From: Deltaproteobacteria bacterium
Lineage (GTDB): Bacteria > Desulfobacterota > Binatia > HRBIN30 > JACQVA1
Reading direction: 5' to 3'
Assembly (NCBI GenBank): GCA_016178705.1
Contig: JACOST010000031.1
Span: 124,001-188,000 of the forward strand
Length of the DNA stretch: 64,000 nucleotides
Shown: positions 49,923-53,684 of the stretch, one piece after another
How the letters are laid out: each line of letters opens with the position of its first letter
How positions within the stretch are numbered: position 1 is the stretch's first letter
Notes under the pieces: generated by a model
What the model was told of the DNA's origin: nothing
What the model saw: the letters and a program-made list of their open reading frames with translations, nothing else
Database searches by the model: none
Position numbers and translations under genes: made by a program

Positions 49923-50417
49923 ATGAAGTGCCCGTTCTGTCACGATCTGGAGAATCGCGTCATCGATTCGCGCTTGGCGAAGGACGGCGGCGTGATCCGC
50001 CGCCGCCGTGTCTGCGAGCATTGCCAGCGGCGCTTCACCACCTACGAGCGAGTCGAGGAGGTGTTTCCCGTTGTGGTCAAGCGTGACGGCAGCCGCGAGG
50101 AGTTCGATCGTCCCAAGATCATTACCGGCCTCAAACGCGCCTGCGAGAAGCGCCCGGTGAGCGTGGCCACCATCGACCAGATTGCCGATCGCATCGAGCG
50201 CAGCCTGCAGGAACGGGGCGACAAAGAGATTGCCAGCAGCGTGATCGGTGAAGCGGTGATGCGCGAGCTACACAAGCTGGACCAGGTGGCGTACGTGCGT
50301 TTCGCGTCGGTGTATCGATCGTTCAAGGACGCGGAAGAATTCATGCGCGAGTTGCAGCAGTTGATGAAAGAGCGTGTCGGCGCCGCGCGCCCGAAGCGCA
50401 AGGTGAAGAAGGCCTGA
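49923..50417 (+). CDS. nrdR: Transcriptional repressor NrdR
   Basis: A 164-residue nucleotide-sensing repressor of ribonucleotide reductase genes. The zinc ribbon cysteines are C3, C6, C31 and C34, followed by the DNA-binding RRRRV stretch. The ATP-cone (about 50-140) has [11 protein letters not shown] and [11 protein letters not shown]. Length and motifs are normal. It begins a run nrdR-ribD-ribBA-ribH-nusB-leuS, a common bacterial order. No NrdR box was found directly upstream. Confidence 0.97.
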
Positions 50418-50420
50418 GGC

Positions 50421-51527
50421 GTGGACGACGACACGCGCTTCATGCGGCTCGCGTTGCGCCTGGCCCGCCGCGGCCTGGGGCGGACCAGCCCGAATCCTTC
50501 TGTCGGCGCCCTCATCGTTCAGCACGGTCGCGTGGTTGGCCGCGGCTTCACCGCGCCGGCGGGCGGACCGCATGGCGAAGTGAACGCGCTGCGCGATGCC
50601 GGTCGGCGCGCTCGCGGTGCCACGTTGTATGTGACGTTGGAACCGTGTGCGCACTTCGGGCGGACACCGCCATGTATCGCGGCAATCCGCGCCGCCGGCA
50701 TCGCGCGCGTCGTCATCGGTACCCGCGATCCGAATCCGCAGGTAGCGGGCGGTGGCGCAACGAAGCTGCGTCGCGCTGGCCTGGCGGTGACCGTAGGTGT
50801 CGAGCAGCGTGCCTGTGACGAACAGATCGCAGCATTCCGCACGCATGTGACGGCAGGGCGACCGTTCGTGATCTTAAAGCTAGCGGCATCGCTCGACGGG
50901 CGCATCGCCACTGCCACCGGCGAATCGAAATGGATCACCAGCGCAACAGCACGCCGCCTTGTGCACCGGCTGCGCAATGAACACGACGCCGTCCTCGTTG
51001 GCGTGCAGACAATCGTGCGGGATGATCCGGCGTTGACCTGCCGCCTGCGCGGTGGCCGCGACCCGGTGCGGGTGGTCCTCGATCGCCGCTTGCGGATTCC
51101 CGAAACCGCGCAGGTGCTGACAAAGCGCGGCGCAGCAGCTACGGTCGTAGCGACGAGCGTGTCGGCAGGGGCCAAGCGTCGGCGGCTGGAAGCGCGCGGC
51201 GTGCAGTTGTTGACCGTGCCTGCCGGTGACGGCGGCGTCTCATTGCCGCGGGTCTTGGCGGCGTTGGGGCGGCGGGGTATGAGTTCGGTACTGATTGAAG
51301 GCGGCGCGGCGGTAGCCGCAACTGCATTGAAGGCAAAGCTCGTGGATCGCATGATGATCTTTCTCGCACCCAAACTCATCGGCGGTGATGGCCGGCCGAT
51401 GATCGACGCGCTCGGTGTGCGTGCGATGCGCCACGCGTTGGCGTTGAGCGATATCCGAGTGCAACGCGTCGGTGCGGACCTCCTCATCACGGCCATGCCC
51501 GTGTTTGCGAGCGAGAGGAAGCGATGA
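50421..51527 (+). CDS. ribD: Bifunctional riboflavin deaminase/reductase RibD
   Basis: RibD converts the first GTP-derived intermediate through deamination and reduction in riboflavin synthesis. The N-terminal deaminase has the zinc motif PHGEVNAL (HxE, about 51) with [11 protein letters not shown] (about 75-85). The C-terminal reductase (from about 150) contains [20 protein letters not shown] and the [13 protein letters not shown] substrate loop. The chosen start GTG is three bases after the nrdR stop. The 368-residue length is normal. Its stop overlaps ribBA by four bases. Confidence 0.95.
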
Positions 51528-52735
51528 CCCTGTCTTCCATCACCGAAGCCCTGGACGATGTGCGGCAGGGCAAGCCCGTCATCGTCGTGGAAGGTGAGGG
51601 CAGCGAAGCGGATCTCTGCGTCGCGGCTGAGCGCGTGACTCCCGAGAGTGTGAATTTCATGGCCACGCACGCCCGCGGCTTGGTGTGCCTGAGCCTGACC
51701 AGCGAGAGCATGCGCGAGTTGGGCATTCCGTTGATGGTGCCGGATGCGCCAGCGGGCAAGGTGCGGCCGTTCGGAGCCTCAATCGAAGCGCGCGAAGGAG
51801 TCACCACCGGCATTTCCGCCGGCGATCGCGCCACTACCATTCGCGTTACGGTACGCGACGGCGCCGGGCCGAATGATCTGGTCATGCCCGGGCACATCTT
51901 CCCGATTCAAATCCGCAGCGGCGGTGTCCTGGTGCGCGCCGGGCTCGCCGAAGCGTCGGCCGATATCGCTCGGCTTGCCGGCTTCAAGCCCGCCGCCGCG
52001 CTCTGCGCGATTCTGCGCGACGACGGCACGCTGGCTCAGCCGGAAGATCTGGCCGAGCTGGCCAAGCTGTTCGAGCTGAAGATCATTCGCATCGCCGATA
52101 TCGTCGCGCACCGCTTGCGCACCGAGTCGCTGGTGCATCGCGTAGCCGAAGCGCGCATCAGCGCCGGCGTCGGTGGCAAGTTCCGCGCCGTCGTGTTTCG
52201 CAGCGACGTCGATCCCGACGAGCACATCGTCTTGGTGAAGGGCGTGCTCCGCCCGCACGACAAGGTGCTAGTGCGGATTCACTCGCAGTGTTTGACCGGC
52301 GACGTATTTGGCTCGGAACGCTGCGACTGCGGCGACCAGCTTGCGAAGGCGCTGGCAATGATCGACGCCGCCGGTAAAGGCGTGCTGGTGTATATGGACC
52401 AGGAAGGGCGCGGCATCGGTCTGGGAAATAAGATCCGCGCCTACGCGTTGCAGGATGAAGGCCGCGACACGGTCGAAGCGAATCTCGAATTGGGTTTCAA
52501 GGAAGACGGGCGCGACTATGGGATCGCGGCGCAGATTCTGCGCGATCTCGGTGTCGACCGCGTGCGCTTGATCACCAACAATCCGAAGAAGCTGCATGGG
52601 CTCAAAGCCTATGGCATCGATGTCGTCGAACGCGTCCCGATCGAGATCCCGCCGCACGCCGGCAACATCCGCTACCTGCGCACCAAGCAGCAGAAGCTCG
52701 GGCATTTGTTGACCGGCTTCCAACTCCTCACGTGA
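51524..52735 (+). CDS. ribBA: RibBA: GTP cyclohydrolase II with degenerate DHBP synthase domain
   Basis: The C-terminal half (about 200-403) is an intact GTP cyclohydrolase II: zinc cysteines in [14 protein letters not shown] and the DQEGRGIGL active segment. The N-terminal DHBP synthase half keeps the fold ([21 protein letters not shown]) but key residues are changed. By ungapped comparison with E. coli RibB, the RENEGD motif is EGSEAD (Arg37 to Glu25, Glu38 to Gly26), His153 of GGHTEA is Leu141 in AGLAEA, and Glu174 of LCEL is Ala162 in LCAI. This half is therefore probably inactive, while the GTP cyclohydrolase half looks active. Start overlaps ribD. Confidence 0.9.
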
Positions 52736-52742
52736 GCGAGCG

Positions 52743-53210
52743 ATGCCGCGAGTTTATGAAACCAAATTGATCGGCCGCGGTCTCCGCTTCGGCATCGCGG
52801 TCGCGCGCTTCAACAGCGTGGTGACCGATCGCTTGCTCGACGGGGCGCTGGGGGCGTTGCGCGAGCATGGCACGCCCGACGACGACATCGAGGTGATTCA
52901 TGTGCCCGGCGCCTTCGAGTTGCCGTTCGCAGCGCATCTGCTGGCTAGCAGCAGCAAGGTTGATGGTGTCATCTGCTTGGGTGCGATCATCAAAGGCGAG
53001 ACCATGCACAACGAAGTCTTGGCGAGCGGCATCGTGGTCGCCCTGAGCCAGCTCGCGGTGCAGCAGGGCGTGCCGGTCGCCTTCGGTGTGCTGACCACCG
53101 ACACGGTGGAGCAAGCGCTGGCGCGCGCGCGATCGGACGGGGGCAACAAAGGCGCCGAAGCCGCGCTGTGTGCGCTGGAAATGGCCAACGTGAAGCGCGC
53201 GCTGGCTTGA
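52743..53210 (+). CDS. ribH: 6,7-dimethyl-8-ribityllumazine synthase
   Basis: RibH condenses the ribityl pyrimidine with DHBP into lumazine, the last-but-one riboflavin step. The 155-residue protein shows ARFNSVVTDRLLDGAL, HVPGAFELPFAAHLL (about 60), CLGAIIKGETMHNEV (about 85, with the catalytic His), GVLTTDTVEQALARA and NKGAEAALCALEM. It follows ribBA within eight bases. It needs DHBP, which the RibBA N-terminal half seems unable to make. Confidence 0.97.
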   Translation: MPRVYETKLIGRGLRFGIAVARFNSVVTDRLLDGALGALREHGTPDDDIEVIHVPGAFELPFAAHLLASSSKVDGVICLGAIIKGETMHNEVLASGIVVALSQLAVQQGVPVAFGVLTTDTVEQALARARSDGGNKGAEAALCALEMANVKRALA

Positions 53211-53231: not shown

Positions 53232-53684
53232 ATGGGCATGCGACGCAAAGGCCGGGAGCTGGCGCTCCAGGCACTCTACCAACAGGAGATCACCGGCGAA
53301 GTGTCGGAGAACTCTTTGCGCGGCTTCTGGCTGAGTTCCGATGCGACGGAACCGGTGAAGGCTTTCGCCCTCAGCCTGGTGGAAGGCGTCGTGGGTCGAC
53401 GCGCCGAGATCGATGCGTTGGTCGACAAGGCGGCCGCGAACTGGCGGCTCGATCGACTCTCGAAGGTGGATCTCAACGTGCTGCGCTTGGCGACCTATGA
53501 GTTGCTCGGAACACCGGAAGTCCCGCCCAGCGTGGTCATCAACGAAGCGATCGAGATCGTCCGCCGCTTCGGCTCGGAAGAGTCTGCCGTGTTCGTCAAC
53601 GGCGTGCTCGATCAAGTGGCCACTCAGTTGGGCGTGAAGCCGGTTGGCAAGACCGCCGAGGTGGTGGAGGTCGAGGAAGAGTGA
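53232..53684 (+). CDS. nusB: Transcription antitermination factor NusB
   Basis: A 150-residue all-helical protein of the NusB family that binds boxA RNA with S10. Conserved parts are RRKGRELALQALYQQEITG (residues 3-21), the RLSKVDLNVLRLATYELL helix and PPSVVINEAIEIVRRFGSEESAVFVNGVLD (split here into its conserved sections, near 95-125). An acidic tail follows. It sits 21 bases downstream of ribH and overlaps leuS by four bases. Confidence 0.96.
   Translation: MGMRRKGRELALQALYQQEITGEVSENSLRGFWLSSDATEPVKAFALSLVEGVVGRRAEIDALVDKAAANWRLDRLSKVDLNVLRLATYELLGTPEVPPSVVINEAIEIVRRFGSEESAVFVNGVLDQVATQLGVKPVGKTAEVVEVEEE

Follow-up and report, generated by a model that had tools for sequence, protein, structure and literature searches.

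This report concerns a gene for riboflavin synthesis in 64,000 nucleotides of a Deltaproteobacteria bacterium (class Binatia; assembly GCA_016178705.1, contig JACOST010000031.1, positions 124,001 to 188,000 of the forward strand), a stretch that we call the window. Its product, here named RibXA, is of the RibBA type: a domain with the fold of 3,4-dihydroxy-2-butanone 4-phosphate (DHBP) synthase precedes a GTP cyclohydrolase II domain, and Pfam recognizes both, PF00926 at residues 8-195 and PF00925 at residues 206-372. Table 1 collects the features of the gene, followed by its neighbours.

A first reading of the window, made from its sequence alone, had proposed that the synthase half is catalytically dead and the cyclohydrolase half conserved. 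The second claim agrees with the ribA equivalog profile TIGR00505, which gives the protein a score of 251.8 (cut-off 205.85), and with the presence of that family's three zinc cysteines and catalytic arginine and tyrosine. We take Cys256, Cys267, Cys269, Arg296 and Tyr290 to be the residues that play these roles. For the synthase half, the comparison with family profiles that the same reading had advised gives, besides the match to PF00926, a score of 176.4 with the ribB equivalog, one bit short of the cut-off of 177.45; with the bifunctional RibBA family NF006803/PRK09311 the score is 513.2, under the cut-off of 569. Both fused folds of that family are present, and what the protein lacks is a complete DHBP synthase site, consisting of R37, E38, H/Q153, T154 and E174 (residues of this site are numbered throughout as in E. 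coli RibB).

A gapped alignment with E. coli RibB finds all five of these residues lost: Leu141 stands opposite His153 and Ala162 opposite Glu174, as the sequence-only reading had them, Ala142 stands opposite Thr154, and Arg37-Glu38 is deleted. That reading had also noticed the absence of Arg37 and Glu38, and had placed Glu25/Gly26 opposite them; the pair aligns in fact with Glu35/Asp36, and the misplacement arose because the comparison was ungapped and two residues are deleted, which leaves the conclusion unaffected. The possibility that the essential residues are shifted but present is ruled out by the gapped alignments. Gln is common at position 153 in live enzymes, so the loss of His153 alone proves little; the losses as a set fit a site that is catalytically dead.

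Table 1. Features of the RibXA gene and of its neighbours, in window coordinates
Feature	Position	Strand	Remarks
RibXA (RibBA with dead DHBP synthase half and intact GTP cyclohydrolase II half)	51524..52735	+	open reading frame of 403 amino acids
Degenerate DHBP synthase domain, residues 1-199	51524..52120	+	Pfam; DHBP synthase fold retained in AlphaFold2 model
Loop 1 region (own-subunit catalytic loop)	51590..51616	+	lacks Arg37-Glu38; substitutions D33E, N39S and G41A; E40 and D42 unchanged
Loop 4 (E. coli 102-110; contributed to the neighbouring subunit's site)	51791..51817	+	REGVTTGIS; Thr107, which is Thr95 of RibXA, and Ser110 kept
Loop 5 (E. coli 131-137; contributed to the neighbouring subunit's site)	51878..51898	+	PGH; His136, which is His124 of RibXA, kept
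Leu141-Ala142 at E. coli His153-Thr154	51944..51949	+	metal and phosphate ligands lost (ligand roles as given in the literature)
Ala162 at E. coli Glu174 (lost)	52007..52009	+	gapped alignment
Intact GTP cyclohydrolase II half	52136..52720	+	presumed zinc Cys256, Cys267, Cys269; Arg296, Tyr290
nrdR-like	49923..50417	+	named by inspection of translation; tblastn match in 63/71 RibXA loci
ribD-like, upstream, 4-base overlap with RibXA	50421..51527	+	named by inspection; tblastn match in 67/71 RibXA loci
ribH-like (lumazine synthase), downstream	52743..53210	+	named by inspection; tblastn match in 59/71 RibXA loci
nusB-like	53232..53684	+	named by inspection; tblastn match in 67/71 RibXA loci

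If the synthase half is dead, DHBP must come from another gene, as the sequence-only reading had noted when it advised a search for a separate ribB. In the genome (6.1 Mb, 98% complete), PF00926 and PF00925 each match at exactly two places, in fused genes throughout: a second gene with complete DHBP synthase catalytic residues does exist, as a fused copy and not as a stand-alone ribB. In this second copy (L001/P0002, contig C30), the motifs RENEGD, PGH and RTGQT and Glu174 are intact in the synthase half, and Tyr, Arg and Thr stand in place of the three zinc cysteines; it scores 237 with the ribB equivalog (cut-off 177.45) and 106.3 with ribA (cut-off 205.85). A live synthase half followed by a cyclohydrolase half without zinc ligands is the make-up of RibBX proteins. 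The score with the RibBX family NF010626 is 459.5, under the cut-off of 513, so the copy is RibBX-like without belonging to the strict family. The two RibBA-type copies of this genome are mirror images. A gene for riboflavin synthase, with two Lum_binding domains, is also present, and the pathway thus looks complete if both copies work.

Reciprocal losses in the two copies across the class

Among 395 genomes of the phylum, all 16 that belong to the class of the window have two PF00926 copies, and most others have one. We sampled the class with 73 genomes, which yield per-genome sets of 71 RibXA and 68 RibBX, and used as outgroup 106 live RibBA, that is, 110 loci (80 + 30 best-scoring) minus four that are RibXA themselves (L005, L006, L007 and L016). 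The catalytic set R37, E38, H/Q153, T154 and E174 is complete in none of the 71 RibXA (one of them a contig-end fragment), in 67 of the 68 RibBX (the exception is a contig-end fragment) and in 106/106 outgroup proteins. The zinc cysteines are found in 70/71 RibXA, the exception being a fragment, and in 0/68 RibBX, 67 of which are readable there. No copy with both sites complete occurs among the classified copies of the 73 genomes. RibXA was not found in two genomes, G395 (74% complete) and G423 (88% complete); its occurrence in the other 71, together with the purifying selection described below, rules out a sequencing error or a pseudogene as the cause of the dead half.

Some genomes depart from the usual pair of one RibXA and one RibBX. 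Two members of family f113 have, besides RibXA and RibBX, a third, stand-alone RibB of about 199 amino acids with a complete site (L159 in G448, L162 in G442). Two RibXA-like places occur in G471 and two RibBX-like places in G514, where strain mixture or duplication is possible.

Within DHBP synthase, R150, H153 and T154 act in their own subunit. A molecular dynamics study of the V. cholerae enzyme (PMC5228156, with the E. coli numbering plus one) describes a site around which one monomer places loops 1, 2 and 3, and the other loops 4 (103'-111') and 5 (132'-138'); a review describes a two-subunit site in general terms (PMC10366380). The study proposes loop 4 as a lid, in which Thr108 (E. coli 107) is strictly conserved and contacts Glu39 and Glu41 of the other subunit, and mentions that T108S was reported as a loss of activity in M. 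jannaschii. We use its definitions of the five loops, calling the first three own loops and the last two lent loops; R150 and T154 are counted among the other positions.

Retention was measured at positions conserved in at least 95% of the 106 live enzymes. At the 12 positions of the own loops it is 0.32 in RibXA and 0.99 in RibBX; at the 7 positions of the lent loops the order is the opposite, 0.94 in RibXA and 0.76 in RibBX; and at the 30 other positions the values are 0.82 and 0.98. RibXA retains R37 in 0% of cases, E38 in 18% and T154 in 13%. The lent residue Thr107, conserved in 98% of live enzymes, is kept by 86% of RibXA and 16% of RibBX.

Among the 66 genomes of the first set that have both genes, 55 have Thr107 in RibXA alone, 9 have it in RibBX alone, 2 have it in both copies and none lacks it in both. 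Two families, f6 and f114, are reversed: their RibXA are without loop 4, and 15 of the 27 have also lost His136, while their RibBX keep Thr107 and His136 in 26/26 cases and show no excess change in the lent loops. With the prediction written beforehand, we then read a held-out sample of 40 of the 72 further genomes of the class, chosen for having both copies listed and for the spread of families. The catalytic set is complete in 0/40 of their RibXA, and Thr107 is in RibXA only in 20, in RibBX only in 17, in both in 3 and in neither in 0. All 17 genomes of the reversed families behave as predicted, and the other 23 are made up of the 20 with Thr107 in RibXA only and the 3 with it in both; for two of these 3 (G452 and G454) the prediction missed. 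Over all 106 genomes with both genes, the four counts become 75, 26, 5 and 0. In the 13 main families, both sets together, Thr107 is present in 84/84 RibXA and in 5/82 second copies, a number that includes the second copy of G452 and that of the single f111 genome, which has no RibXA read.

A scan of all columns, without preselected sites and with families f6 and f114 left out, tells the same story. Most columns vary more in RibXA; those that vary more in RibBX number 44 of 194 and are headed by 107, 105, 81, 133, 104, 76, 109, 106 and 132. Comparing lent-loop columns with the others gives p=7.6e-8 for entropy and p=2.4e-8 for parsimony changes on the tree, values that are strong but not exact because the columns are not fully independent. 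The parsimony changes in RibXA and RibBX respectively number 66 and 144 in the lent loops, 493 and 120 in the own loops, and 1585 and 763 elsewhere. Thr107 itself changes 0 times in RibXA and 16 times in RibBX; positions 33, 37, 38, 40, 42, 150, 153, 154 and 174 change 10-20 times each in RibXA and never in RibBX. The lent-loop residues 104, 107, 109 and 110 are without change in 60 RibXA of the main families. The case draws its strength from this repeated substitution of Thr107 within RibBX.

The phylogenetic trees exclude sequences shorter than 300 amino acids, which leaves 70 RibXA and 67 RibBX. Families f6 and f114 come out as a single clade, which is the deepest split in the trees of both paralogues, for the full protein and for the cyclohydrolase (A) half; in the tree of the synthase (B) half, the RibBX of these two families do not cluster together. 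Loop 5 has its own exception in family f5, where RibBX carries Tyr at His136 in 10/16 genomes and RibXA keeps the His in 16/16. Outside f5, RibBX keeps His136, so that loop 5 shows the division weakly and is weaker evidence than loop 4.

Selection, fold and surroundings

Selection was measured by median dN/dS (the ratio of nonsynonymous to synonymous substitution rates, by the method of Nei and Gojobori) over 98 within-family pairs. In RibXA it is 0.265 for the dead synthase half and 0.152 for the live cyclohydrolase half; in RibBX, 0.126 for the live synthase half and 0.227 for the dead cyclohydrolase half. Constraint is relaxed in both dead halves yet still present, and the one in RibXA is under purifying selection. 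In the AlphaFold2 model of the window protein the mean predicted local distance difference test score (pLDDT) is 89.4, the weakest block of the dead half being residues 71-80, in loop 2; the model matches DHBP synthases of known structure to about 1.7 A over about 195 columns. The sequence-only reading had suggested that the domain might have a new role, for example in oligomerisation, and this appears to be true: the half is under selection and keeps the loops that are lent to the partner's site.

A search for a similar lent element within the cyclohydrolase half gave candidate columns only. The helix with the motif YGIGAQIL, at residues 329-345 of the window protein (52508-52558), is better conserved in RibBX, where the cyclohydrolase half is dead, than in RibXA, where it is live, and Gly at 335 is present in 99% of RibBX and 51% of RibXA; this region is perhaps a pairing surface.

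The order of genes on the forward strand of the window is nrdR-ribD-RibXA-ribH-nusB-leuS, with names given by inspection. None of ribD, ribH, nusB and nrdR was found beside RibBX in 68 loci, some of which offer only about 3.5 kb to search. A search for a flavin mononucleotide (FMN) riboswitch gave no Rfam match at gathering scores in the window or in five RibBX loci.

Related proteins and controls

The partner of the window gene resembles the RibBX of Proteobacteria (PRK14019/NF010626; Shewanella, Aeromonas, and A. baumannii with structure 6mnz), in which a live DHBP synthase is joined to a cyclohydrolase II domain without zinc ligands. Two differences separate them. According to PMC10012899, Aeromonas and Shewanella have a separate RibA as cyclohydrolase, unlike the class studied here, and we see one beside the RibBX gene of Cupriavidus; and Thr107, lost in most RibBX of this class, is kept together with His136 in 9/9 proteobacterial RibBX, as it is, with His136, in the aligned A. 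baumannii protein. These nine belong to 16 control loci from a plasmid collection, taken from 120 listed matches (353 and 384 records matched): nine RibBX without zinc ligands, three RibA with a degenerate N-terminal domain, one RibBA by motif (L274), and L269, L271 and L280, which were classified by their synthase half; the last four all keep the full DHBP synthase motifs. The two kinds of RibBX form one clade with support 0.986 for the full protein and 0.785 for the A half, and no clade for the B half: on whether RibBX came by transfer or by duplication, the three trees disagree.

The three RibA whose N-terminal domain is degenerate come from Palleronia, Rhizobium SL42 and Microvirga, and their annotation reads 'GTP cyclohydrolase II' or 'GTP cyclohydrolase II RibA' (cf. 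PRK08815). They resemble RibXA in having a live cyclohydrolase II, with its zinc cysteines, after a domain in the position of DHBP synthase. They differ from it in keeping neither the catalytic nor the lent loops, and their N-terminal domain is a putative descendant of DHBP synthase. The control patterns imply that a dead cyclohydrolase half, or a dead N-terminal half, does not by itself lead to the division observed in the class.

Some surroundings of these controls deserve a word. On the plasmids of Palleronia (L275) and Rhizobium SL42 (L276), the gene lies near genes for a zinc-binding alcohol dehydrogenase and an FkbM methyltransferase, and in one of the two also near 6-carboxytetrahydropterin synthase; this looks like a specialised biosynthetic cluster starting from GTP. 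A plasmid of Methylocystis iwaonis carries L274, which has both motifs of a RibBA and the annotation ribA only; it lies near the alkanesulfonate monooxygenase gene ssuD, adjoins the FMN reductase gene msuE and may supply flavin specifically for the use of sulfonates.

The closest parallel to RibXA is found in plants. According to Hiltunen et al. 2012 (PMC3509567), a full-length RibBA with a dead synthase half and a live cyclohydrolase II occurs in Arabidopsis, as RIBA3, and in the RIBA3 clade of tracheophytes, and Arabidopsis RIBA2 has the opposite defect, as RibBX has here. In vitro, RIBA2 and RIBA3 on their own have one activity each. Neither 'dimer' nor 'heterodimer' appears in the main text of that paper. 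Plants differ in keeping a bifunctional RIBA1, and the defect of RIBA2 is limited to Arabidopsis. In the class, a copy with both sites complete occurs in 0/73 genomes of the first set, with one exception in the 40 held-out genomes, and the division between the copies extends to the lent loop. We assume that RibXA and plant RIBA3 arose in parallel. Activation of an impaired subunit by a catalytically dead paralogue is known from deoxyhypusine synthase and from the S-adenosylmethionine decarboxylase 'prozyme' of trypanosomatids (PMC3663545; PMC5201418), and the sites of the human deoxyhypusine synthase are described as lying at the interface between monomers. Those pairs are unrelated eukaryotic enzymes; in the pair studied here, each partner has two fused domains of which one is dead, and the two defects mirror each other.

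A DHBP synthase site probably shared between two paralogues

The residue losses, their reciprocity throughout the class and the selection on the dead half are direct observations. On their basis we think it likely that RibXA and RibBX make DHBP as a heterodimer in most of the class, that is, in 13 families including that of this genome, with f6 and f114 split the other way. RibXA would make the cyclohydrolase II product with its own site, its own synthase site being incomplete; RibBX would bring the complete synthase residues and a dead cyclohydrolase half. The two would pair through their synthase halves, and perhaps also through their cyclohydrolase halves. To the shared synthase site RibBX would contribute loops 1-3 and the metal and phosphate residues, and RibXA would contribute loop 4, with Thr107, and probably loop 5, as a lid: the dead domain probably still supplies part of its partner's active site. 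The outcome would be one working synthase site per pair, and both committed steps of riboflavin synthesis in one complex. In f6 and f114, RibBX with its own loops 4 and 5 could act as a homodimer, beside a RibXA without loop 4. The physical pairing, its activity, and the crippling of a RibBX homodimer by loss of Thr107 are what we infer from the alignments.

Several facts weigh against the heterodimer. Thr107 is present in both copies in 5 of the 106 genomes with both genes, and its commonest replacement in the second copies of the main families is Ser (33/82, then Arg with 17). Ser is a mild change, so that some RibBX may keep part of their activity alone, and in PMC5228156 the simulated T108S site still admits Mg, the authors calling for experiments. 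His136 is kept in both copies of the main families other than f5. The reversed families form one clade in most trees, so their swap counts as about one event, and in these families a heterodimer is unnecessary. The RibXA and RibBX genes are unlinked. Loops 4 and 5 could be retained in RibXA for reasons of fold or interface, and the column tests assume independence among columns. In 5 of the 73 genomes (G431, G411, G417, G432 and G445; 80-97% complete) RibXA was present and RibBX was not found, and G431, G417 and G445 are without RibBX although 95-97% complete: an assembly gap may or may not explain this, and if it does not, another source of DHBP is needed. Two genomes have the extra stand-alone RibB. 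Finally, G452 pairs its RibXA with an intact bifunctional RibBA, L328 (G452:C163:8750-10163), the only one among the copies read in the class, which is either on a contaminating contig or a genuine substitute for RibBX.

What else could account for these data? Two monofunctional homodimers might work independently, RibBX making DHBP and RibXA the cyclohydrolase product, with the dead half a scaffold for folding or dimerisation of the cyclohydrolase. The single activities of RIBA2 and RIBA3 are a precedent; f6 and f114, whose RibBX keeps all loops and whose RibXA has lost loop 4, would suit such an arrangement, as would the fold kept in the model and the mildness of Ser at position 107. It leaves unexplained the 16 changes of Thr107 in the RibBX of 13 families while nine catalytic positions stay unchanged, the retention of the lent loops in RibXA, and the fact that no genome with both genes lacks Thr107 in both copies, and we consider it unlikely. 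The dead half might instead be a sensor of a ligand (ribulose 5-phosphate, phosphate or flavin) that regulates its own cyclohydrolase half or RibBX. In Shewanella RibBX, the X domain reportedly regulates the RibB half, by a mechanism given as unknown (Brutinel 2013, cited in PMC10012899), and the retained loops 4 and 5 belong to the pocket for the substrate; on the other hand, RibXA has mostly lost R37, E38 and T154, the phosphate and metal residues by which such a ligand would be held, and a sensor leaves the losses in RibBX unexplained, which makes it quite improbable. Neutral decay has the least to recommend it, and we give it hardly any credence: a synthase half on its way to being lost, as perhaps in the RibA of Palleronia, Rhizobium SL42 and Microvirga, whose N-terminal stretch keeps neither set of loops, should not have a dN/dS well below 1, four lent-loop residues unchanged in 60 proteins and a preserved fold, even if it does evolve faster than the live half of RibBX (0.265 vs 0.126).

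Parts of this picture are already known separately: RibBA with a dead synthase half in plants (RIBA3), the mirror defect in Arabidopsis RIBA2, and RibBX in Proteobacteria. As far as our literature search reached, the new elements are a RibXA in bacteria whose dead half is well preserved, the association of this copy with RibBX throughout a class that has almost no bifunctional copy left, and the division of an interface site; the search, which left most subscription papers outside, returned no report of a split DHBP synthase site or of RibBA paralogues in Binatota, and PMC9999580, the one paper to name both Binatota and riboflavin, mentions riboflavin a single time, within a list of expressed vitamin pathways.

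Returning to the heterodimer, we would say, somewhat less firmly than for the pairing itself, that a bifunctional homodimer has probably been resolved into an obligate heterodimer at two levels: each copy has kept one of the fused domains, and the site at the interface has been divided between the own residues of RibBX and the lent loops of RibXA. With a sister lineage reversed, this would be a natural series of active-site splitting. For these bacteria, the annotation 'bifunctional RibBA' would be wrong for both genes. More generally, pseudoenzyme halves are common, and sequence alone rarely reveals which function a dead half has left; in this pair it has retained the parts that a subunit lends its neighbour, the live partner has mostly lost the key residue, and the sister lineage is an internal control. 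The pair may serve as a simple two-gene test case of how active sites at an interface become shared between paralogues.

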